Assembly (NCBI RefSeq): GCF_012932915.1
Contig: NZ_VCQU01000003.1
Location: forward strand, 558,001-622,000
From: Antrihabitans stalactiti
Lineage (GTDB): Bacteria > Actinomycetota > Actinomycetes > Mycobacteriales > Mycobacteriaceae
DNA length: 64,000 bases
Direction of reading: 5' to 3'
Shown here: positions 30,502 through 41,899 of the stretch, piece after piece
Position numbering within the stretch: position 1 is the first letter of the stretch
How the letters are laid out: every line of letters begins with the position of its first letter
Translations under genes and position numbers: made by a program
The notes under the pieces: generated by a model
What the model saw: the letters and a program-made list of their open reading frames with translations, nothing else
Told to the model about the DNA's origin: nothing
The model's database searches: none

Positions 30502-30969
30502 CTAGCGCACAGGCGGCACCAGAAACACCGGCCGATGGCAATGCTTGAGCACGTTGTCTGCAACGCTGCTGTGCAGCAGCGCTTTAATGCCGGTGGCGCC
30601 GCGGGTGCCCGCGACGATGAGGTCGACGTTCAGCTCGTCGGCGGTCGCGACGATCGTGTTCCAGATGGTGCTGGTGCACTCTTCGCACCGCGGCTCTGCA
30701 TTGAGGCCCGCCGATTTCGCGAGCTCGAGGCCTTCGGCATTCGTCGCCTTGGCATCGGTGAACGCAATGTCCTCGACGTCCTCGTCGGGCACCCAGTCCG
30801 GCTGCATCACGCCGGACAACCCGGACATACGCGCCGCTTGGCGAACCATCGGTTCCCACGCGGTCAGCACGATGGCGCGGTCAGCTGTGAGGAACCGACC
30901 GGCATATTGAATAGCGCGCTTGGCGTGTTCGGAACCGTCGTACGCAATGAGCATGACGTCGCAGGCCAT
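30502..30969 (-). CDS. Universal stress protein
   Basis: 155 residues, single UspA domain. N-terminal VMLIAYDGSEHAKRAIQYAG and C-terminal LIVAGTRGATGIKALLHSSVADNVLKHCHRPVFLV contain the ATP-binding G-2x-G-9x-G-(S/T) pattern (GTRGATGIKALLHSSVADNV). Two close Cys residues (RCEECTS) are an unusual addition that could be redox-active. ATG 30969 has a perfect AGGAGG upstream. Divergent from lpqI. Confidence 0.9.
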   Translation of the reverse strand: MACDVMLIAYDGSEHAKRAIQYAGRFLTADRAIVLTAWEPMVRQAARMSGLSGVMQPDWVPDEDVEDIAFTDAKATNAEGLELAKSAGLNAEPRCEECTSTIWNTIVATADELNVDLIVAGTRGATGIKALLHSSVADNVLKHCHRPVFLVPPVR

Positions 30970-31081
30970 GTCGAACCTCCTGGTCCAGGCCGTTTTTCCT
31001 ATCCCGAGCCTACCGTTGCCACGGCCTGTGCGTGGAGTGGTTGGCCGGTGTGGCGTCGATCGTCGGATAACGTCGACACCC

Positions 31082-32254
31082 ATGCGGCGAACTTGGGGAT
31101 CGGTGGTAGTGCTGTGCGCGGCGATGGTTGCGGGGTGTTCCAGCAATACCCCGTCGTCGCCGACAACTAACCCGCCGAGCCTGATGAGCGACAACAAGAC
31201 CGCAGTCGCACCCCCTTCGCCTTCGCCTGCCGCCGACGATTGCGTCGGCCAATTCCTCGCGAAATTCAGCTTGCGGGACAAGCTCGCTCAGCTGCTGACC
31301 GTCGGTGTGACGGGCCCGTCGGACGCGATCGACGTCGTCAGCACCGAACATGTCGGCGGGATCTTCATCGGCAGCCCGACCGACAAGTCGATCTTGAACA
31401 AAGCTCAGATGGACAAGGTCAAGGCGGCCTCGACCAACCTGCCGTTGATGGTCACCATCGACGAAGAAGGCGGGCGGGTCTCGCGCATCCCCGAGCTACT
31501 CGGCGGTTCTGAGCTGTCGGCCCGCGAAGCCGCGAAGACGTACACGGCGGACCAGGTATACGAGCGCACGAAGGCGCGTGCGGCCAAGTTGAAGGACCTC
31601 GGTATCACCGTGGACTTCGCGCCGGACGTCGATGTCAGCAATCAGCCCGATGATTCCGTGATCGGTGACCGCTCTTACTCCAACGATCCTGCCGTCGTCA
31701 CGGAATACGCAGGCAAATACATCCAGGGCATGTTGGACGCGGGCGTCAAGCCGGTGATCAAGCACTTCCCCGGGCACGGTCATGGCACTGGTGATTCGCA
31801 CACGGGTGCGGTGTCGACGCCGCCGCTCGACCAGCTGAAGAAGGTCGACTTGCTGCCGTTCCGAGATCTCGTCTCCAGCGGTGCGGCCGTGATGGTCGGT
31901 CACCTCGATGTGCCCGGCTTGACCGACGCGAACATACCCGCCAGCATCAGTCCGCAGGTCATGGCGTTGCTACGCGAAGGTACCGGCTACGGAGCCGCGC
32001 CGTTCGACGGACCGATCTTCACCGACGATCTCAGCGGCATGGCAGCCATCACCGCGAAGTACGACATCGAGACTGCGGTCGAGACCGCGTTGGTCGCGGG
32101 CGCGGACGTTGCGCTGTGGATCAGCACCGACGCCGTGTCGAGCGTATTGGATAAATTGGAGAAATCGGTCGCCGCCGGCCGGCTGACCCAGCAGCATGTC
32201 GACCAATCCCTGGTCCGGGTGGCGAAGTTCAAAGGCGCCTTGTCCTGCTCGTAG
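31082..32254 (+). CDS. lpqI: Lipoprotein beta-N-acetylglucosaminidase (GH3, NagZ-type)
   Basis: 390 residues, about the length of Rv0237 LpqI. The lipobox MVAGC follows a short signal sequence, so the enzyme is tethered outside the membrane. GH3 features are present: TIDEEGGRVSRI, the substrate-binding KHFPGHGHGTGDSH with the His that acts as general acid/base in NagZ enzymes, GHLDVPGL, and the nucleophile Asp in FTDDLSGMAAI. It removes GlcNAc from muropeptides in cell-wall recycling. The downstream tetR starts 80 bases after its stop, as in M. tuberculosis Rv0237-Rv0238. Confidence 0.94.
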   Translation: MRRTWGSVVVLCAAMVAGCSSNTPSSPTTNPPSLMSDNKTAVAPPSPSPAADDCVGQFLAKFSLRDKLAQLLTVGVTGPSDAIDVVSTEHVGGIFIGSPTDKSILNKAQMDKVKAASTNLPLMVTIDEEGGRVSRIPELLGGSELSAREAAKTYTADQVYERTKARAAKLKDLGITVDFAPDVDVSNQPDDSVIGDRSYSNDPAVVTEYAGKYIQGMLDAGVKPVIKHFPGHGHGTGDSHTGAVSTPPLDQLKKVDLLPFRDLVSSGAAVMVGHLDVPGLTDANIPASISPQVMALLREGTGYGAAPFDGPIFTDDLSGMAAITAKYDIETAVETALVAGADVALWISTDAVSSVLDKLEKSVAAGRLTQQHVDQSLVRVAKFKGALSCS

Positions 32255-32284: not shown

Positions 32285-32306
32285 TAACTTACTGTAAAGT
32301 AAGATA
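32285..32306. promoter_or_regulatory. Inverted-repeat operator upstream of tetR
   Basis: CTTACT-gtaa-AGTAAG (32288-32303), flanked by TA/TA, lies 32 bases before the TetR start codon. The same arms and 4-nt spacing occur at 35289-35304. Probable autoregulatory site. Confidence 0.72.
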
Positions 32307-32334
32307 GGAGGTTCGGTCGGCGAGAGGACGCGAA

Positions 32335-32931
32335 ATGGCGGGCGGAACAAAGCGACTTCCGCGCGCTGTGCGTGAGCAACAGATGCTAGACGCCGCGGTG
32401 AATGTGTTTGCCCGCAACGGCTTCCATGAGACGTCGATGGATTCTATCGCGGCAGAAGCACAGATCTCCAAGCCGATGCTCTACCTGTATTACGGTTCGA
32501 AAGAGGAACTGTTCGCAGCCTGTATCCACCGCGAGGGCGTGCGTTTCGTCGAGGCGATGGCGCCCGCCGGTGATCCGAATTTGTCGCCACGCGACCAGCT
32601 ACGGACCGCGTTGTTCTCGTTCCTCAATTTCGTCGACAAGAACAGAGATTCCTGGCTCGTGTTGTATCGCCAGGCGATCGGGCAGCAGGCGTTCGCAGGC
32701 CAGGTGCGCTCCAGCCGCGAACGGCTGATCCAGTTGGTCGAGAAGTTGCTCGAGTCGAGCACGAAGAATCCGGACCCGGGTACCGATTTTTCCATCATGT
32801 CGGTCGCACTCATCGGGGCGGGGGAAGCTGTCGCCGACCGAATTGCTGGTGGCGACGTTGCGGTCGAGGCTGCGGCCGATCTACTCGAAAGTCTTGCCTG
32901 GCGCGGTCTGCGCGGCCCCCGGCCCTCGTGA
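32335..32931 (+). CDS. TetR family regulator, Rv0238-like
   Basis: 198 residues. The N-terminal HTH is AVREQQMLDAAVNVFARNGFHETSMDSIAAEAQISKPMLYLYYGSKEELFAACI, a standard TetR DNA-binding domain; the C-terminal ligand domain is typical of acyl-CoA- or lipid-responsive regulators but not diagnostic. An inverted repeat sits just upstream and again in the fabG4/fadA2 promoter, with looser forms upstream of fadE5, so this protein is the natural candidate repressor. Its stop codon lies within the palindrome at 32925-32982, a likely terminator shared with the convergent htdX. Confidence 0.93.
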   Translation: MAGGTKRLPRAVREQQMLDAAVNVFARNGFHETSMDSIAAEAQISKPMLYLYYGSKEELFAACIHREGVRFVEAMAPAGDPNLSPRDQLRTALFSFLNFVDKNRDSWLVLYRQAIGQQAFAGQVRSSRERLIQLVEKLLESSTKNPDPGTDFSIMSVALIGAGEAVADRIAGGDVAVEAAADLLESLAWRGLRGPRPS

Positions 32932-32982
32932 GTCTGCTTGGAGGGCCCCAGTGGAGGCCGGGGACTCCAGCAGACTCACGAG
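32925..32982. terminator. Long inverted repeat between tetR and htdX
   Basis: CTCGTGAGTCTGCT and AGCAGACTCACGAG are perfect 14-nt outer arms, continued by GGAG/CTCC after one bulged base, around a GC-rich loop. It overlaps the tetR stop and lies downstream of both convergent genes, so it could terminate both. The outer 11 bases match those of the repeat at 16396-16441. Confidence 0.75.
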
Positions 32983-32988
32983 CCGTGG

Positions 32989-33861
32989 TCAGCGCAGTGT
33001 TGCTGTGAGGTGCGGGTAGCCCTTCTTGGGGTGCTTGAGGGAAAGATCCCAGCCGCCCTGGACCTCGTCGGCATAAAGGTTGACCGTCGACGGAATCAGC
33101 ACAGGCTTACCGAACTTCACCGAGTACGTGACAGCGTCGGGAATGCGTCCCTCGACAACCTGCAAAGTGGTTGCCGCGGTGAACATTCCGTGCGCGATCG
33201 TCGACGGAAAGCCGAACGCCTTGGCGCCGATACCGGAGATGTGGATCGGGTTCCGGTCACCGGATACCGCTGCGTACTTGCTGATCGTCTTCTGATCGAT
33301 ACGCAGCGTGCGGGTCGGCGGCGGTGGGACCTCGTCGGGCTTGGGCTCCGGCTTCGGTCCACCCGACAGCGACGTCTTCTGCTGGTGCAGGAACGTGGTC
33401 GTCTGCTTCCAGACTTCCTCGCGCCCGACGCTGACATCGGTCACCATGTCGACGAGCAGTCCCTTCGGGTGCTCTCGCAAGTTCGCCGCGCGTACCCGAA
33501 CGTCGAGCGGCTCGCTGACCGAAATGGGCCGTAGCTGCTGAATCACGTTCTCAGCGTGTACGGAACCGATCGCGGCAAACGGGAACTCCTTGTCGATGAC
33601 GAGCTGCATGACCGTGGGGAACGTGAGCACGAACGGGTACGTCAACGGCAACGTGTCGCCGAAACGCAGGCCCGTGACGCGGGCGTATTCAGCCAAGTGG
33701 TCCGGATCGACCTTGAGGCCCTTGAGCTCCAAGGTGTGCTCCGGCAACGTATCGCTACGTCCGCCGCGACCCGGCAACGGCACCGCGCCGAGCGCGGCTT
33801 TGAAGTAGAGGTCGCGAATCTTCGGCTGTACGCCGAGCCGGATGGTCTTCGCTGGAGACAT
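32989..33861 (-). CDS. htdX: 3-hydroxyacyl-thioester dehydratase, double hotdog
   Basis: 290 residues with two hotdog domains. The C-terminal one has the R-specific hydratase motif ISKYAAVSGDRNPIHISGIGAKAFGFPSTIAHGM, with the catalytic Asp and His. The N-terminal hotdog (residues about 15-165) lacks it, and a Pro-rich linker (PKPEPKPDEVPPPP) joins them. It hydrates or dehydrates (R)-3-hydroxyacyl-CoA or -ACP. ATG 33861 overlaps the fabG4 stop (TGATG), so the two form an operon, as with Rv0241c-Rv0242c. Confidence 0.93.
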   Translation of the reverse strand: MSPAKTIRLGVQPKIRDLYFKAALGAVPLPGRGGRSDTLPEHTLELKGLKVDPDHLAEYARVTGLRFGDTLPLTYPFVLTFPTVMQLVIDKEFPFAAIGSVHAENVIQQLRPISVSEPLDVRVRAANLREHPKGLLVDMVTDVSVGREEVWKQTTTFLHQQKTSLSGGPKPEPKPDEVPPPPTRTLRIDQKTISKYAAVSGDRNPIHISGIGAKAFGFPSTIAHGMFTAATTLQVVEGRIPDAVTYSVKFGKPVLIPSTVNLYADEVQGGWDLSLKHPKKGYPHLTATLR

Positions 33862-35219
33862 CAGGCCCCCAGCAGGCTCTGCCCGCAAACGCGAACAACG
33901 TTGCCGGTCACGGCGTTCGATGCCGGACTGGCGAAGTAGGCGATTGCTTCGGCAACGTCGACGGTTTCGCCGCCCTGCAGCAACGAGCTCATCCGTCGGC
34001 CGGCCTCGCGGGTGGCGAACGGAATTGCGGCTGTCATCGCGGTCTCGATGAAACCGGGGGCGACGGCGTTGATCGTGATGTTCTTCTTAGCCAGGACGGG
34101 CGCAGTCGCCTGCACCAGACCGATGACGCCGGCCTTCGACGTGCCGTAGTTGGTCTGGCCGCGGTTGCCTGCGATACCTGCGATGGAGGACACGTCGACC
34201 ACGCGGCCGCCGTCCTTCAGCGCGCCCTTGGCGATCAGGACATCGGTGATCTTCTGCGGTGCAAGCAGGTTGACGTTGATGACGGCGTTCCAGCGCGCGT
34301 CGTCCATGTTCGCCAGCGTTTTGTCGCGAGTGATGCCTGCGTTGTGGACGATGATGTCCGCCCCGCCGTGACGCGAAAGGACGTGCTCGGCAAGCACGTC
34401 TCCGGCGTTGTCTGCCGTGACGTCGAGGGCGAGCGAGGTGCCGCCGACTCGGTTCGCGGTCTCCGAGAGCGCCTCGCCGGCCTGCGGGATGTCTGCGCAG
34501 ATCACGTGGGCGCCGTCGCGCGAAAGGACCTCGGCGATGGTGGCGCCGATGCCGCGGGCGGCGCCGGTGACGATCGCTACCTTGCCTTCGAGTGGGCGGT
34601 CCCAGCTTGCCGGTGCGGTCGAGTCCTCGGCGCCCACGCGGATGACCTGAGCGTCGACGAACGCCGACTTGGCCGACAGCAGGAAGCGAAGGGTCGACGC
34701 GAGGCCGGAGAGGCCGGTCGAGGCGTTCGGGGAGACGTACACCAACTGTGCCGTCGAGCCGCGCTTGATTTCCTTGGCGACGCTGCGGGTGAAGCCTTCG
34801 AGTGCGCGCTGCGCGATGTGCTCGTCGACCGACGACGTCTCCTCCGGCGTGGTGCCGATGACGACGACGCGGGCGCTCGGAGCGAGGTCACGGATTACCG
34901 GCTGGAAGAATTTGTAGAGCCCGTCGAGCTCGCTGATGCTGCCGATGCCTGTGGCATCGAACACAAGCGCGCCGTACTTGGAGTCACCTTCGGTCGCAAA
35001 GGTGTAGTCCGACAGCAGTTCCCGGATCGGCTCGACGAGCCGTCCGCTGCCGCCGAGGAGAACCGGACCGGCCAACGGCGGTTCGCCGGCCTTGTACCTG
35101 CGAAGTTTCTCCGGCTGCGGCAGACCTGCCTGCTTGGCGATGAACGCGCCCGCTCCCGTGGACAGGAACGACGAGTACAGGTCCGGGGCTCCCTTGGACT
35201 TGGTCTTTGTGGCTGCCAC
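33861..35219 (-). CDS. fabG4: High-molecular-weight 3-oxoacyl-reductase FabG4
   Basis: 452 residues, close to Rv0242c. The N-terminal half is a flavodoxin-like/Rossmann domain without a complete cofactor motif ([20 protein letters not shown] to about residue 200). The C-terminal half is a full [47 protein letters not shown] (Ser, Tyr, Lys), then [10 protein letters not shown]. It reduces 3-ketoacyl-CoA or -ACP with NADH. GTG 35219 is chosen because GAAGG lies just upstream; an ATG nine codons earlier is in frame. Co-transcribed with htdX from the operator-containing promoter. Confidence 0.94.
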
Positions 35220-35286
35220 TTTCCTACCTTCTCTGCTGATTGACATGGCTCAGGTCGCACAATTACCAGGTGCGATATCGACATTG

Positions 35287-35306
35287 AACTTACTCCGGAG
35301 TAAGTT
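35287..35306. promoter_or_regulatory. 20-bp perfect palindrome in the fabG4/fadA2 promoter
   Basis: AACTTACTCCGGAGTAAGTT is a perfect palindrome, 41 bases before fadA2 and 68 before fabG4. Its CTTACT-n4-AGTAAG core equals the site upstream of the Rv0238-type tetR. Confidence 0.78.
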
Positions 35307-35346
35307 AGTTGTCGAGCAGACCCCAACACATCTTGGAGACGTCAAC

Positions 35347-36633
35347 GTGACAAGCAAGCAGCTGCGCCCGGTCGCAATCCTGGGCGGCAACCGGATTCCA
35401 TTCGCAAGGTCGGACAAGGCTTACGCCCGCGCATCCAATCAGGACATGTTCACCGCAACGCTGGACGGGCTCGTCAGCCGCTTCAACCTGCAGGGCGAGC
35501 AGCTCGGCCTCGTCGTCGGTGGCGCAGTCCTCAAGCACAGCCGTGATTTCAACTTGATGCGCGAGTCGGTCCTCGGCAGCGCGCTCAGCCCGTACACCCC
35601 GGCCTACGACCTCGGTCAGGCCTGCGGCACCGGCCTGCAGTCGATCATCGCCGTCGGTGACGCGATTGCTGCCGGTCGCATCGAGTCCGGCGTCGGTGGC
35701 GGTGTCGACACCACGTCCGACGCCCCGATCGGTGTCAGCGACGATCTGCGTGAGTTCCTGCTCTCGGTGAACCGCGCGAAGACCACTGCCGACCGCCTCA
35801 AGCTGCTCGGTCACGTGCGCCCGAGCATGCTCGGCCTGGAGATCCCCAAGAACGGCGAGCCGCGCACCGGCAAGTCGATGGGAGAGCACGCCGCGATCAC
35901 GTCGAAGGAATTCGGTATTCGCCGCGAAGACCAGGACAAACTGGCCGCAGCGAGCCACAAGAACATGGCAGCCGCCTACGACCGCGGATTCTTCGACGAC
36001 CTGGTCACGCCCTTCCTCGGCCTGACCCGTGACGACAACCTGCGTCCGAACTCGTCCGTCGAGAAGCTCGCAACGCTGAACCCGGTCTTCGGTGTGAAGC
36101 TAGGCGACGCCACCATGACGGCTGGTAACTCCACTCCGCTCACCGACGGTGCGTCGGCTGCGCTGCTCTCTTCGGACGAATGGGCCGCAGAACGCAACCT
36201 TCCGGTGCTCGCCCACTTGGTCGACTCGGAGACGGCGGCTGTCGATTACGTCCATGGCAAGGACGGCCTCCTGATGGCGCCGACCTACGCCGTGCCGCGT
36301 CTGCTCGCTCGCAATGGATTGACGTTGCAGGATTTCGATTACTACGAAATCCACGAAGCCTTCGCCTCGGTTGTGCTCGCCACGTTGCAGGCTTGGGAGA
36401 GCGACGCTTACTGCAAGGAACGGCTCGGACTCGACGGAGCGCTCGGTTCGATCGACCGCAGCAAACTCAACGTCAACGGTTCGTCGCTCGCCGCAGGCCA
36501 CCCGTTCGCAGCCACCGGTGGGCGCATCGTCGCGTCGCTCGCAAAGATGCTGGCAGAGAAGGGATCGGGCCGCGGCTTGATCTCGATCTGCGCCGCTGGC
36601 GGCCAGGGCGTCACGGCGATCATCGAACGCTAG
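35347..36633 (+). CDS. fadA2: Acetyl-CoA acyltransferase (thiolase)
   Basis: 428 residues. Thiolase catalytic residues are intact: the acylated Cys in DLGQACGTGLQSI, the His in YEIHEAFASVV and the second Cys in ISICAAGGQGV; GHPFAATGGRIV is the CoA-site loop. The N-terminus VTSKQLRPVAILGGNRIPF resembles FadA2/FadI-like enzymes. GTG 35347 has GGAG 8 bases upstream. It cleaves or forms 3-ketoacyl-CoA with CoA. Divergent from fabG4 over a shared operator, same order as Rv0243. Confidence 0.94.
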   Translation: MTSKQLRPVAILGGNRIPFARSDKAYARASNQDMFTATLDGLVSRFNLQGEQLGLVVGGAVLKHSRDFNLMRESVLGSALSPYTPAYDLGQACGTGLQSIIAVGDAIAAGRIESGVGGGVDTTSDAPIGVSDDLREFLLSVNRAKTTADRLKLLGHVRPSMLGLEIPKNGEPRTGKSMGEHAAITSKEFGIRREDQDKLAAASHKNMAAAYDRGFFDDLVTPFLGLTRDDNLRPNSSVEKLATLNPVFGVKLGDATMTAGNSTPLTDGASAALLSSDEWAAERNLPVLAHLVDSETAAVDYVHGKDGLLMAPTYAVPRLLARNGLTLQDFDYYEIHEAFASVVLATLQAWESDAYCKERLGLDGALGSIDRSKLNVNGSSLAAGHPFAATGGRIVASLAKMLAEKGSGRGLISICAAGGQGVTAIIER

Positions 36634-36671
36634 AAAGATAGCCCGAAAATAACTGAGAAATTTCTCGCGTG

Positions 36672-36684
36672 AGGTGTAACACCT
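36672..36684. promoter_or_regulatory. Short perfect dyad after fadA2
   Basis: AGGTGTAACACCT has 6-nt perfect arms around one base. It lies between the fadA2 stop and a strong hairpin, so it may be a regulator site or part of the 3' end. No specific regulator is assigned. Confidence 0.35.
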
Positions 36685-36710
36685 ACCGAGTGCGAGCGAT
36701 TTCATAGACG

Positions 36711-36764
36711 GCTCCGCGCTGCTGCCCGACCCCCGACCCGGCAGCCGCGCGGGGCCTTCTATTT
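36711..36764 (+). terminator. Rho-independent-like terminator after fadA2
   Basis: GGCTCCGCGC-t-GCTGCC pairs with GGCAGC-c-GCGCGGGGCC across a 13-nt loop, giving a stem of about 16 pairs, followed by TTCTATTTT. It lies 80 bases after the fadA2 stop. Confidence 0.7.
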
Positions 36765-36821
36765 TGCCGATAGGCTGAACTCATCACTGGATCCGGGCGA
36801 CACGCAGTCGCGACCACATCG

Positions 36822-38486
36822 GTGCGTCGTCGTGTGGCAATCATCTTGGGCGCTGTGTTCGCCGTTTTCGCGTTGGCCTATCTAGTCGACTGGATTGCGT
36901 CGGCGGGCGACGTACCCCGCGGAACCAGGGTCGCAGGTATCGACGTCGGTGGAATGAACGCCGACGAAGCCGAGCGAGTGTTGCGCGACCGGATCGGTCC
37001 GCGCACGGACAGCCCCGCTGCCGTGCAAGCCGGCGATGTGCGCGCAGGTGTCACGCCTACTTCCGCAGGCTTGTCCGTTGACTGGGACGCAACGCTGAAA
37101 CGTGTCCGCGACCAGCCGATCAATCCGCTGACCAGGTTGTTCTCACCGTTCACGACCCGAACTGTCGATGTTGTGTCGGTCGTCGACGATGCTGCCCTGG
37201 CGCGGTCCGTCGACAAATTGAGTGCCGTGATCGATCGCAAACCTCTCGAAGGCTCGGTGCGTTTCGAAGGAGCGAAACCAGTCGGCGTCACGGCGGTGCC
37301 TGGTCAGGTGCTCGATGTGGCGGGTGCGAAAGCCGCGTTGATCGACGAATGGGCGAATGGCACAACGATCGAGCTTCCGGTCGACGTCGTCGATGTCACG
37401 GTCCATGATTCGGCGGTCGACAAGGCTGTCGCCGAGGTAGCAGGTCCAGCGGTCGCCGCCGATGTCGTCTTCACCGGCCGCGACGGCAAGTCGGCAACCC
37501 TGAAGCCCGACCAGGTCGGTGCGGTCCTGAGTTTCGCACCCGATGGATCCGGCGGCCTCGCCCCGCAGTACAACCGCGACGCTGCCGCAGCATTGCTCGC
37601 ACCGCAGCTCGCGAGCACCGAGGTCATGCCGCGTGATGCCGAGTTCGCCGTCGACACCGGGTTCGTGAGGGTGATCCCGGCGGTCGTCGGCGACATGGTC
37701 GTGTGGCCCAAGACGCTCGACCAACTGCCTGCGCTGCTGAGCAACAGCGGTCCGCGGACGGTCGCTGCCACCTACGAGGCGGTCCAGCCGGCATTCACCA
37801 CGGCCGCGGCCGACGCCTTCGGGATCAGGGAAGTGATCGCCGAATACACAACCGGTGGGTTCGAATACGCGTCGGGAGTCAACATTCGGAAGGTCGCTGA
37901 AGTCGTCAACCGCGCAATCGTCAAGCCTGGCGACACGTTTTCGTTGAACGGGTTCACCGGTCCGCGCGGGACCGACCAGGGCTACATCGAATCTGGCATC
38001 ATCGACCACGGTCGTCCTGCGCGAGCGGTCGGCGGTGGCATCAGCCAATTCGCGACGACGTTGTACAACGCGGCCTACTTCGCCGGTCTCGAAGACGTCG
38101 ACCACACCGAGCACAGCTATTACATTTCGCGCTACCCGGAGGCTCGTGAAGCAACCGTCTACGAAGGCGCGATCGATCTGCAGTTTCGCAACAACACCCC
38201 GACCGGAATCCTGATCGAAACCGTCGCGACCGGCTCCGACGTCACGGTCCGCATCTGGGGAACCAAAGCGGTCGAGGTCGAGTCGGTCACGGGTGATCGA
38301 TATGCCCAAACCGCTCCTCGAACCATCACGCTTCCCAAGGGCGACGATTGCGTGGCATCCAAAGGTGCACCCGGCTTCACCACCAGCAACACCCGAATCA
38401 TCACCGACCGCATCACTCGCCAAGAGGTCTACCGCCACACCCGGACCGTCAAATACGACCCCGTCCCCATCGTCAAATGCGAGTGA
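36822..38486 (+). CDS. VanW/YoaR family membrane-anchored protein
   Basis: 554 residues from GTG 36822. An N-terminal membrane helix (VAIILGAVFAVFALAYLVDWI) is followed by two peptidoglycan-binding-type four-helix repeats (GTRVAGIDVGGMNADEAERVLRDRI and a second around residue 150), then the VanW domain at the C-terminus with NRAIVKPGDTFSLNGFTGPRGTDQGY, GGGISQFATTLYNAAYFAGLE and HSYYISRYPEAREATV. This is the common YoaR layout with a predicted L,D-transpeptidase-linker or G5-like role in the wall. Vancomycin resistance is not implied. It lies after the fadA2 terminator and is probably a separate unit. Confidence 0.9.
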   Translation: MRRRVAIILGAVFAVFALAYLVDWIASAGDVPRGTRVAGIDVGGMNADEAERVLRDRIGPRTDSPAAVQAGDVRAGVTPTSAGLSVDWDATLKRVRDQPINPLTRLFSPFTTRTVDVVSVVDDAALARSVDKLSAVIDRKPLEGSVRFEGAKPVGVTAVPGQVLDVAGAKAALIDEWANGTTIELPVDVVDVTVHDSAVDKAVAEVAGPAVAADVVFTGRDGKSATLKPDQVGAVLSFAPDGSGGLAPQYNRDAAAALLAPQLASTEVMPRDAEFAVDTGFVRVIPAVVGDMVVWPKTLDQLPALLSNSGPRTVAATYEAVQPAFTTAAADAFGIREVIAEYTTGGFEYASGVNIRKVAEVVNRAIVKPGDTFSLNGFTGPRGTDQGYIESGIIDHGRPARAVGGGISQFATTLYNAAYFAGLEDVDHTEHSYYISRYPEAREATVYEGAIDLQFRNNTPTGILIETVATGSDVTVRIWGTKAVEVESVTGDRYAQTAPRTITLPKGDDCVASKGAPGFTTSNTRIITDRITRQEVYRHTRTVKYDPVPIVKCE

Positions 38487-38523
38487 CCACCTAGCCGCGC
38501 GGCAGTTCGCCAAACGCACACCG

Positions 38524-38569
38524 AATTGCTAGCAAATCCGCCTGCGGCTAGCGAATTGGTTTGCGGCTG
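38524..38569. repeat. 46-nt repeat, left copy flanking the AbiEi-like gene
   Basis: Begins AATTGCTAGCAAA and contains GCGAATTG; aligned without gaps, about 37 of 46 positions match the copy at 39688-39733. Each copy is itself part of an imperfect palindrome (CACACCGAATTGCTAGC against GCTAGCGAATTGG). Confidence 0.72.
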
Positions 38570-38583
38570 TGCTGGTTTCGAAT

Positions 38584-38611
38584 CTATCCACAGGGCCGAA
38601 GTTATCCACAG
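38584..38611 (+). promoter_or_regulatory. Two DnaA-box-like TATCCACAG repeats
   Basis: TATCCACAG occurs at 38585-38593 and 38603-38611, 18 bases apart. The second, extended to TTATCCACA (38602-38610), matches the DnaA-box consensus. They precede the AbiEi-like gene by about 50 bases. No other origin features are present. Confidence 0.45.
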
Positions 38612-38662
38612 ACCGCGAGCTTTCGCCGCTTTGGGTCGACGGCCTAGTGCAGCATTGCAGTC

Positions 38663-39655
38663 ATGGAACTCGACGGGGGCGAGGTGCTGCGCCGCCAGCA
38701 TGCGCTACGGAGTGGAATCGCGGATCACGAGATTCGAGGGCTTTACACCCGCGCCGGCTGGCGCAGACTCGGTCACGGAGCCTACGTCGCCGAGTCGGCG
38801 TTTACCGGACTCGATCAGCACGCCAAGCACCGGCTGTTGCTCGACGCGACGCTGCCCGCTCTGTCGTCCGATTCTGTTCTCAGTCACCAATCCGTCGCAG
38901 TCGCCTACGGGCTGCCGATCCGTGGGTTACCGCTCGACGCTGTTCACGTGACTCGGGACCGTGAGACCGGGAATCGCGTCCGGCCGACGTTGAATGTTCA
39001 TTGTTCGCCGCTCGGCGGCGAAGTTGTGGAGTTGGACGGTCGGCTGCTGACAACTCCCGCCCGCATGATCGTCGATCTGGGTCGAACTGCGCCGCTCGAA
39101 GCGGTATTGGTCACCGCAGACGCAGCTGTTCGCGAATTCGGTGTAACCGCGTCCGACCTAGCGATCGAGCTCGAGCGAGCGAAGAATCGCAGCGGCATTG
39201 CAGCGGCCCGACGCCTGGTCGATCTTGTCGACGGGCACAGCGAAAGCGTCGGCGAATCGCTGAGCAGGCTGATGCTTCGCTCCTTCGGCTTCACTGGGTT
39301 CAAGACTCAGGGGAATGTGTACCTCGAACATGGTCGGCTCCTCGGCCGCGTGGACTTCTACGACGAAGAGCTGGGCGTGCTAGGAGAGTTCGACGGCGAG
39401 GTGAAGTACGGCCGACTACTGAAGCCAGGTCAGGACCCTGGCGAGGTGGTCTTCCGGGAGAAACAACGCGAGGACGCAATGCGCGACCCGGGATTCCAGA
39501 TGGCGCGGTGGATCTGGCGTGAGCTCGACAAGCCGGCGACAGCAGCCCGCATCGAGCGAGCGTTGGAACGAGGCCGAGCGTCCTCGAAGCCGATTGGTTA
39601 CATCGTGCAAGCGCCGCTACCGACGCCACGCCGGTTGGTGCGGCGGTCTCTTTGA
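38663..39655 (+). CDS. AbiEi-antitoxin-like protein with restriction-endonuclease-like C-terminus
   Basis: 330 residues. The N-terminal 90 residues have the winged-helix pattern of AbiEi-type proteins: VLRRQHALRSGIADHEIRGLYTRAGWRRLGHGAYV followed by SVLSHQSVAVAYGLPI. The C-terminal segment GRVDFYDEELGVLGEFDGEVKYGR with later EKQREDAMR looks like a DUF559/VSR-type PD-(D/E)xK core (Asp, Glu and Lys). This two-part architecture is widespread in actinobacteria without a known function. No partner AbiEii nucleotidyltransferase lies beside it, so it is not a complete toxin-antitoxin pair. It is enclosed by two 46-nt repeats. Confidence 0.8.
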   Translation: MELDGGEVLRRQHALRSGIADHEIRGLYTRAGWRRLGHGAYVAESAFTGLDQHAKHRLLLDATLPALSSDSVLSHQSVAVAYGLPIRGLPLDAVHVTRDRETGNRVRPTLNVHCSPLGGEVVELDGRLLTTPARMIVDLGRTAPLEAVLVTADAAVREFGVTASDLAIELERAKNRSGIAAARRLVDLVDGHSESVGESLSRLMLRSFGFTGFKTQGNVYLEHGRLLGRVDFYDEELGVLGEFDGEVKYGRLLKPGQDPGEVVFREKQREDAMRDPGFQMARWIWRELDKPATAARIERALERGRASSKPIGYIVQAPLPTPRRLVRRSL

Positions 39656-39687
39656 CAGCCACAAACCGAATTGTCAGCCACAGCTGG

Positions 39688-39733
39688 AATTGCTAGCAAA
39701 ACGGTCTGTGGTTGGCGAATTGCTTTGTAGCTG
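39688..39733. repeat. 46-nt repeat, right copy flanking the AbiEi-like gene
   Basis: AATTGCTAGCAAA-acggtctgtggttg-GCGAATTG-cTTTGtaGCTG. With the upstream CAGCCACAAACCGAATTG it forms an imperfect dyad of about 28-nt arms. Lies between the AbiEi-like gene and the terminator of fadE5. Confidence 0.72.
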
Positions 39734-39742
39734 AGACGCCAA

Positions 39743-39770
39743 CACCCCCGGACCGTGGGGTCCGGGGGTG
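39743..39770. terminator. Bidirectional hairpin terminator
   Basis: Perfect 12-nt arms CACCCCCGGACC and GGTCCGGGGGTG with a GTGG loop. It sits between the convergent AbiEi-like gene and fadE5 and could end both transcripts. Confidence 0.8.
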
Positions 39771-39799
39771 CTGTGCGGAACTAGCTGTGCGGAACTAAC

Positions 39800-41638
39800 T
39801 CAGAATGCCGCTTCGTCGAGCTCCATGATGTCGTTCTCGAGGTTGCTGAGGACGGCCTTGATGGCGGTGAGCTCGGGGAGCACGTTCTTGGCGAAGAAGC
39901 TCGCAACTGCGACCTTGCCTTCGTAGAACGCCTTGTCCTTGCCAGCGTCTGCACCGTTGTCGAGGGCCTTGATCGCGACCTCGGCGTTGCGGAGCAGCTG
40001 CCAGCCGATGACCAGGTCGCCGACCGCGAGGAGGAAGCGGACCGAACCGAGGCCGACCTTGTACAGCTCGGTCGGGTTCTCCTGGGCACCCATGAGGTGA
40101 CCGGTCAGCGTTGCCGCCATGCCCTGCACGTCTTCCAGCGCGGTGGCGAGGAGGGCGCGCTCGTTCTTCAGGCGACCGTTGCCGGCCTCGCTGTCGATGA
40201 ACTTCTGGATCTGGCCTGCGACGTGCGCCAGGGCGACACCGCGGTCACGTGCGATCTTGCGGAAGAAGAAGTCCTGCGCCTGGATCGCGGTGGTGCCTTC
40301 GTACAGCGAGTCGATCTTCGCGTCGCGGATGTACTGCTCGATCGGGTAGTCCTGGAGGAAGCCGGAGCCACCGAGGGTCTGCAGCGACTCGGTCAGGTAC
40401 TGGTAGGCACGCTCGGAGCCGACACCCTTGACGATCGGGAGCAGCAGGTCGTTGACGCGGAACGCCGTTTCCTTGTCTGCGCCCGACACCGCGAGCGCGG
40501 TGTCTTCGTTCTGGTGCGCTGCGGTGTAGAGGTACACCGAACGCAGGCCCTCGGCGTACGCCTTCTGCGTCATCAGGCTGCGACGGACGTCGGGGTGATG
40601 CGTGATGGTGACGCGCGGGGCTGCCTTGTTCGTGGACTGCGTCAGGTCTGCACCCTGGACGCGCTCCTTGGCGTACTCGAGCGCGTTGAGGTAGCCGGTC
40701 GAGAGCGTGGCGATGGCCTTGGTGCCGACCATCATGCGAGCGTGCTCGATGACGTCGAACATCTGCGCAATGCCCTTGTGCTCTTCGCCGACGAGCCAGC
40801 CCTTTGCGGGGATGCCGTGGCCACCGAAGGTGAGTTCACAGGTGGTGGAGGCCTTGAGGCCCATCTTGTGCTCGACACCGGTCACGAATGCGCCGTTGCG
40901 CTCGCCCAGTTCGCCCGTCTCGAAGTCGAAGTGGAACTTCGGAACGAAGAACAGCGACAGGCCCTTGGTGCCCGGACCTGCACCCTCGGGGCGCGCAAGC
41001 ACCAGGTGGAAGGTGTTTTCGAACATGTCGTCGGCGTCGGCCGAGGTGATGAAGCGCTTGACGCCCTCGATGTGCCAGGAGCCGTCTTCCTGCTTGATCG
41101 CCTTGCTGCGACCTGCACCGACGTCGGAACCCGCGTCAGGCTCGGTGAGCACCATCGTCGCGCCCCAGTTGCGCTCGGCGGCGATGACGGCCCACTTCTT
41201 CTGCTCTTCGGTAGCGTTGTTGTAGAAGATCTGCGAGAAGCCAGCGCCCGCGGCGTACATGAAGGCGGCAGGCTGTGCTCCGAGGAGCAGCTCTGCGATG
41301 GCCCAGTACACGGTGCGCGGAACGGCGAGACCGCCCAGTTCCTCATCGACACCCAGCTTGTCCCAGCCGCCGTCCTGCAGCGACTTGAAAGACTTCTTGA
41401 ACGACTCCGGAATCGCCACGGTGTGCGTCTCGGGGTCGAAGACCGGCGGATTGCGGTCCGCATCGGCGAAGGATTCGCCAAGCGGGCCCTCTGCGAGGCG
41501 GCGAACTTCGCTCAGCATCTCGCGAACGGTGTCGGAATCAAGGTCGCCGTATGCGCCCGTTGCCAGGGTCGCATCGAGTCCCAGTACCTCGAAAAGGTTG
41601 AATTCGAGGTCCCGAACGTTGCTCTTGTAATGTCCCAT
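39800..41638 (-). CDS. fadE5: Acyl-CoA dehydrogenase
   Basis: 612 residues, matching Rv0244c FadE5 in length. ATG 41638 ([19 protein letters not shown]) is the conserved start; the frame remains open for another 220 codons but that sequence is opposite the neighbouring hydrolase. FAD and substrate features: [34 protein letters not shown], and the catalytic Glu in [15 protein letters not shown]. The first 40 residues form the extra N-terminal domain of long ACAD forms. It oxidises acyl-CoA to enoyl-CoA in beta-oxidation. Two TACT-n4-(A/G)GTA elements lie about 77 bases upstream. Confidence 0.95.
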
Positions 41639-41714
41639 CGCTGTGTCGCTCTCCATTGAGTCGGGGGTGGTGCGGTCTGGGTTCTCCAGTTCCGCCCTGA
41701 TGCTGGCGGGAAAA

Positions 41715-41752
41715 TACTCACCAGTAACTTGTGCCGATGTTACTCCCGGGTA
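41715..41752. promoter_or_regulatory. Pair of TACT-n4-AGTA elements upstream of fadE5
   Basis: TACTcaccAGTA (41715-41726) and TACTcccgGGTA (41741-41752), 26 bases apart. They also pair with each other as AGTAAC...GTTACT. The core matches that of the operators at 32288 and 35289, though with shorter arms. Confidence 0.5.
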
Positions 41753-41899
41753 CAGACACTGAACAAGGTGAATCCGGCGCATTGTGATAGGAACCACAGG
41801 GCCGTTCGGATTGTGAAATCGCAAGTCGAACAACACATCCCGGTCGAAAAATCTGAGGATCTCCTCACGTTTCGGTGTCCGGTGCCTTACGGTCGTTGG

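Follow-up and report, generated by a model that had tools for sequence, protein, structure and literature searches.

We examined a fatty-acid gene cluster of Antrihabitans stalactiti that lies in a window of 64 kb (the whole stretch of contig NZ_VCQU01000003.1 that was analysed, 64,000 nucleotides), in which the gene for a TetR-type repressor stands beside htdX, fabG4 and fadA2, followed further on by fadE5. Four copies of one palindromic element, hereafter operators 1 to 4, are found before tetR, between the divergent fabG4 and fadA2, and as a pair before fadE5 (Table 1). The first two contain the 16-mer CTTACT-n4-AGTAAG, whereas the two at fadE5 are looser and are better described by the core TTACY-n4-RGTAA. 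In operator 2 the 16-mer (35289-35304) sits symmetrically, with 42 bases separating it from the fabG4 start (35246) as well as from the GTG of fadA2 (35347). The original prediction, made from the letters of the window, had named these same four sites, including the perfect palindrome and the two looser copies, and all of them were recovered; the first lies 31 rather than 32 bases before tetR. We take the order lpqI-tetR-htdX-fabG4-fadA2-fadE5 in the window to be that of Rv0237-Rv0244c.

Table 1. Operators, genes and other features of the locus, in window coordinates.
Feature	Position	Strand	Basis or remark
Operator 1, CTTACTGTAAAGTAAG, predicted autoregulatory site	32288..32303		CTTACT-n4-AGTAAG, 0 mismatches; 31 bases before tetR ATG (32335)
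Operator 2, perfect 20-bp palindrome AACTTACTCCGGAGTAAGTT, fabG4/fadA2 intergenic	35287..35306		16-mer with 0 mismatches
Operator 3, proximal fadE5 site	41714..41727		Core, one mismatch from TTACY-n4-RGTAA
Operator 4, distal fadE5 site	41740..41753		Core, one mismatch; 26 bp from operator 3
tetR, FdmR (Rv0238)-type repressor, 198 aa	32335..32931	+	Pfam TetR_N and TetR_C_46; PDB 3f1b; gene order
htdX-type MaoC hydratase	32989..33861	-	Pfam MaoC_dehydratas; conserved order
fabG4, 3-oxoacyl reductase	33861..35246	-	NF006110 above cut-off; FabG4 structures
fadA2, acetyl-CoA acetyltransferase/thiolase	35347..36633	+	NF006740 above cut-off; GTG start
fadE5, acyl-CoA dehydrogenase, 612 aa	39800..41638	-	Full-length match to mycobacterial FadE5 structures
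GH3 enzyme gene	30920-32254		Pfam, NCBIfam, solved structures
Gene with VanW and peptidoglycan-binding domains, between fadA2 and fadE5	36822-38486		Pfam
Open reading frame after the VanW-domain gene, before fadE5			No Pfam match
Inverted repeat between convergent tetR and htdX	32926-32982		Arms about 32926-32944 and 32965-32982, by eye

The fadE5 start was set at 41638, where the alignment with solved FadE5 chains begins at residue 1. As a separate observation, the inverted repeat between tetR and htdX is possibly a two-way terminator.

These sites are rare both in the window and in the genome. Allowing one mismatch, the core TTACY-n4-RGTAA occurs in the whole 64 kb at exactly 32289, 35290, 41714 and 41740, i.e., at the four operators, and allowing two it occurs at 16 places (0.08 per 310 bp). 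A search for the 16-mer at up to two mismatches found none in the 64-kb window beyond the sites at 32288 and 35289, while 100 shuffled versions of the window gave a mean of 0.16 such matches, with two matches in 2 of the 100. Across the genome (6.76 Mb) we counted five perfect 16-mers, compared to 0.07 expected from base composition and none for the reversed control, which speaks against chance.

The operators are also conserved before the orthologues of these genes. Of 571 relatives found in a protein-guided scan, the best 80 were used as named loci, a selection biased to close kin; 34 of them came from Rhodococcus, Prescottella, Rhodococcoides or Antrihabitans and 46 from Nocardia; the window brought the set to 81. 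For each gene we took the best 16-mer match in a stretch running from 300 bp before the start to 30 bp into the coding sequence, leaving out loci with the gene beyond reach, those whose protein match began only past residue 40 and those with less than 150 bp upstream, which kept 72 loci for fabG4, 73 for fadA2 and 13 for fadE5. Before fadA2 the 16-mer was perfect in 71 of 73 loci and within one mismatch in all 73. Before tetR it was within two mismatches in 79 of 81; for a majority of the 80 named loci, the best site was at -43 to -48 relative to the start. The reversed pattern reached two mismatches in 1/81 (tetR), 0/72 (fabG4), 0/73 (fadA2) and 0/13 (fadE5) loci; we relied on this control because random pieces of the named loci gave counts inflated by the true sites there.

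For fadE5, the core was sought in a separate set of 29 promoters obtained from 101 sequences, matches starting after residue 20 being left out. All 29 had a core at no more than one mismatch within 250 bp, 25 of them a perfect one, and in 21 a second site (up to two mismatches) was located 25 to 27 bp away, which indicates that the two looser copies in the window are a conserved pair. On the background scale, 30 nuoA upstream regions of 310 bp held 7 cores at up to two mismatches in total. We extended the comparison to 20 regions from the 24 other genomes of the same family and to 20 regions chosen from 46 other-family genomes with the TetR. In the same-family regions the order GH3-tetR-htdX-fabG4-fadA2 was kept in 20 of 20, in line with the conserved gene order claimed originally, and fadE5 fell within the fetched stretch in 16; the fadA2 site was perfect in 18 and had one mismatch in 2. 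In 6 of these 20 regions the site was picked up from the fadA2 side but missed from the fabG4 side, probably as a result of extrapolated fabG4 starts that were too early. Among the other-family regions, 15 hold fadA2, all with a site at no more than two mismatches, often CCTACT-n4-AGTAGG, and 5 do not hold the gene. The proposal that the motif would be conserved upstream of orthologues is thus borne out before fadA2, tetR and fadE5.

The operator also follows the repressor gene. In 150 genomes of the order, in which the repressor was counted as present if the best TetR match had an E value of 1e-35 or better, the perfect pattern CYTACT-n4-AGTARG was found in 69 of the 71 genomes with the TetR (164 sites), compared to 9 of the 79 without it (12 sites), whereas its reversed control occurred in 13/71 (19 sites) and 12/79 (19 sites), respectively. 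Relatedness could be a partial cause of this association, yet the contrast holds inside a single family (f13), where all 17 genomes with the TetR have a perfect site and none of the 6 without it do. The sites, their conservation and their tie to the repressor gene are direct observations. In the protein itself, residues 36-64, the DNA-binding region, have a mean conservation of 0.94 across 81 sequences, compared to 0.79-0.80 after residue 64. The conserved sites fall within ~240 bp before start codons, as a conserved promoter or RNA element might, but we consider it highly improbable that the motif is such an element rather than a repressor site, given its dyad symmetry, its tandem spacing, its variable distance to the start and its absence where the TetR gene is absent.

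The closest solved protein to the window's TetR is a TetR-like regulator from Rhodococcus RHA1 (PDB 3f1b; E = 1.9e-98 over residues 1-196; TM-score 0.89; 73% identity when structurally aligned), an entry whose title states no function. The predicted fold, with a mean predicted local distance difference test score (pLDDT) of 80, retrieved 3f1b first and then FasR of Mycobacterium tuberculosis with C20-CoA or DNA, followed further down the list by FadR with stearoyl-CoA. This modeled resemblance fits an acyl-CoA pocket, short of proof. Bacillus FadR shares the TetR fold and is a fatty-acid regulator with a stearoyl-CoA-bound structure, but its B. subtilis chains are only 16-18% identical to our protein, and its operator, like the KstR motif, differs from the operator here.

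FasR, at 28-29% identity, is likewise of the TetR type, and PMC7382501 describes it as a sensor of long acyl-CoA, released from DNA by chains of C16 or longer, and as an activator of fatty-acid synthesis (fas-acpS). Which protein binds a palindrome cannot be read from the palindrome alone, no FasR operator sequence was found in the literature searched, and among characterised solved structures FasR comes next in similarity and also responds to long acyl-CoA; the operators might accordingly belong to another acyl-CoA-responsive TetR, for example a FasR orthologue, with the neighbouring tetR a mere bystander. We regard this as very unlikely, since perfect sites track this particular TetR even within one family, and since a site precedes this very tetR in nearly all Rhodococcus/Nocardia-type loci, as counted above. 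Furthermore, the window TetR scores 86.9 bits on the FasR family model NF053731, far below the cut-off of 330, and hence falls outside that family.

The mycobacterial counterpart, Rv0238, already has a name and a function. PMC12403877, citing Dong 2021, describes it as FdmR, which responds to long-chain acyl-CoA and represses genes for the degradation and modification of fatty acids, and PMC9262360 likewise states that FdmR is an acyl-CoA-dependent repressor of fatty-acid degradation, answering to long chains, and counts fadE5 among its targets. The original prediction's statement that no regulon had been described for this repressor was thus wrong. In PMC4482099, Rv0238 is among five TetRs retained in all mycobacteria examined, including M. 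leprae, and is named once, outside the motif table. The protein of the window appears to be an FdmR orthologue by sequence and by gene order, the order having been followed in the same-family regions, and the predicted operators lie at fatty-acid degradation genes including fadE5. As with FdmR of M. marinum and M. tuberculosis, a TetR protein would here repress fatty-acid degradation and have fadE5 among its targets; unlike there, it occurs in another genus and has a strong predicted autoregulatory site, which is absent in many presumed mycobacterial genomes.

We therefore favour, with a probability of roughly 0.86, that the window TetR is the FdmR orthologue and acts as an acyl-CoA-relieved repressor of fabG4-htdX, fadA2, fadE5 and its own gene. 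Repression and the acyl-CoA response are carried over by analogy from the mycobacterial literature, and DNA binding and the ligand in A. stalactiti, as well as targets outside the window, we infer. Without long-chain acyl-CoA, a TetR dimer would occupy the TTACY-n4-RGTAA palindromes and block fabG4-htdX, fadA2, fadE5 and its own promoter. Upon entry of a long-chain acyl-CoA into the ligand pocket, the DNA-binding domains would spread and free the operators, such that fatty-acid breakdown would start once its substrate is present; loosening by long-chain acyl-CoA has been shown for FasR (PMC7382501) and is reported for FdmR (PMC12403877). The site in its own promoter would make the repressor self-limiting in Rhodococcus and Nocardia.

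The operator is also found well beyond the window. Across the whole genome, 12 places match the 20-mer at up to three mismatches, compared to 2 in the control, and TTACT-n4-AGTAA occurs at seven places, compared to none. Sites lie near etfBA, etfD, pntAA, fadE24-fadE23, a DUF4442 gene, nuoA, fadD and a desaturase module, among others; the names etfD and fadE24-fadE23 are presumed from mycobacterial counterparts, consistent with the Pfam domains. Seven targets were followed in one panel of 30 genomes throughout, 25 of which belong to the own family and 5 do not, and cores at up to one mismatch were counted over a stretch reaching from 400 bp before the gene to 40 bp into it. Such cores occurred before etfB in 30/30, etfD in 26/30 (14 of 18 close matches and 12 of 12 distant ones), fadE24 in 25/26 and the DUF4442 gene in 13/17, whereas gene-body pieces of the same length gave 0/2060 for these four genes and 1/600 for nuoA. 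With a second site at up to two mismatches, 14 pairs spaced by 25 bp were counted in the 30 etfD promoters and 14 pairs spaced by 21-25 bp in the 26 fadE24 promoters. Two candidates failed as conserved targets: nuoA, with a core in 3/30 and none perfect, and pntAA, with a core in 2 of the 17 loci taken as orthologues, perfect in both, after 12 distant matches (42-49% identity) had been set aside as non-orthologues.

Dehydrogenases, an electron carrier and a membrane oxidoreductase thus appear, from their promoter sequences, to share one operator. The same repressor probably covers etfBA, etfD, fadE24-fadE23 and the DUF4442 gene, which would switch the dehydrogenases and their electron outlet together. 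To the fuller proposal we give even odds, namely that an acyl-CoA-gated repressor controls fadE5, fadE24-fadE23, etfBA and etfD in most of the family, with operators often paired at 21-27 bp at etfD, fadE5 and fadE24, and here maybe pntAB and complex I as well. PMC8593149 reports that the etfD transcript responds to iron via IdeR and is repressed by hydrogen peroxide, while etfBA shows no dependence on iron; several inputs may thus act on etfD. In the literature searched, which did not include Dong 2021 or its supplements, FdmR and etfD were met together in a single paper, where FdmR is confined to the references, and the main text of two EtfD papers names neither FdmR nor Rv0238, a weak hint that an FdmR-etfD link is unpublished.

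Several observations weigh against so simple a picture. Two genomes bearing fdmR (G023 and G063) lack a perfect site by the CYTACT-n4-AGTARG pattern, and nine genomes without the TetR gene carry one. Measured against the strict 16-mer, fadE5 promoters have 3 mismatches in 12 of 13 named loci and 4 in the remaining one, and operator 3 likewise has 3. Just 7 of the 20 regions from the same family have a tetR-promoter site at up to two mismatches, such that autoregulation is probably weak or absent in many genomes of that family; the predicted own-promoter site is weak in many genomes of one genus (g2), which is probably Mycobacterium judging from its FadE5, very close to the mycobacterial FadE5 structures. 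Of the etfD matches, 12/30 are distant (36-41% identity). The operator as defined here may also differ from the published FdmR motif. Lastly, the base before the core is C in 99-100% of sites at tetR, fadA2 and fadE24 and G in 83-92% at etfB and etfD, and these two flank classes (C..G versus G..C) could reflect two regulators with one core, FdmR at the C-flanked sites and a second TetR at the G-flanked sites of etfBA, etfD and fadE5. This is an unlikely arrangement, however, as most fadE5 sites are G..C-flanked like those of etfBA and etfD although fadE5 is a reported FdmR target, which speaks for one regulator, and as the best site of the tetR promoter itself is G-flanked in 5 of 10 family-f13 regions. 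Overall, the claim of one repressor for the whole set plus itself stands with respect to a shared, conserved operator tied to the TetR, but self-regulation is not universal and the set seems to reach beyond the window.

At the desaturase module, FdmR control is ambiguous. The promoter of the Rv3230c-type reductase had a core in only 2 of 30 loci (27 genomes), and a different palindrome was seen there. After the reductase gene, each of the 17 g2 genomes in the panel has a core at up to one mismatch, a perfect one in 14; two of these 17 have a second reductase locus without a downstream site. The gene behind the reductase was confirmed as a desaturase in one g2 genome, and by Pfam in the own genome. 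The reductase gene-body control was raised (62/600 pieces at up to one mismatch) because the real site lies behind that gene. At L346:2574-2650, and at the corresponding position in 16 more g2 genomes of the panel, the TTACY-n4-RGTAA site before the desaturase adjoins a palindrome of the CTACG..CGTAG kind, which also precedes the partner reductase; it is probably the operator of another regulator, possibly overlapping that of FdmR, and the TTACY-n4-RGTAA site may itself belong to another regulator.

A few further sites were noted in the own genome. A perfect 20-mer precedes pntAA (L005:5131), and the nuoA site (L021:1501) has 3 mismatches to the 20-mer; these two are lineage-specific or chance, and this lineage may possibly have recruited redox genes recently. 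Another perfect 20-bp operator-like site lies just before a short-chain dehydrogenase (SDR) gene (L009:5092), and others lie near fadD (L018), a molybdopterin oxidoreductase (L020) and the aconitase region (L017), with Pfam checks made for the fadD and SDR genes.

Taken together, the locus is best read as the known FdmR system, present in a further genus, and not as a new one. FdmR and its control of fadE5 are already published. What is added is that etfBA, etfD, fadE24-fadE23 and the DUF4442 gene are likewise preceded by a conserved core of the predicted operator, and that the conservation footprint makes the operator precise in a further genus. The notion of an undescribed regulon is thereby corrected, and the FdmR system is carried into Rhodococcus and Nocardia, genera known for oil storage and degradation. 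A function can be proposed for 3f1b, hitherto titled only "TetR-like". If etfBA and etfD are indeed targets, the switch between burning and storing fatty acids would at the same time govern how much their respiratory exit can carry.

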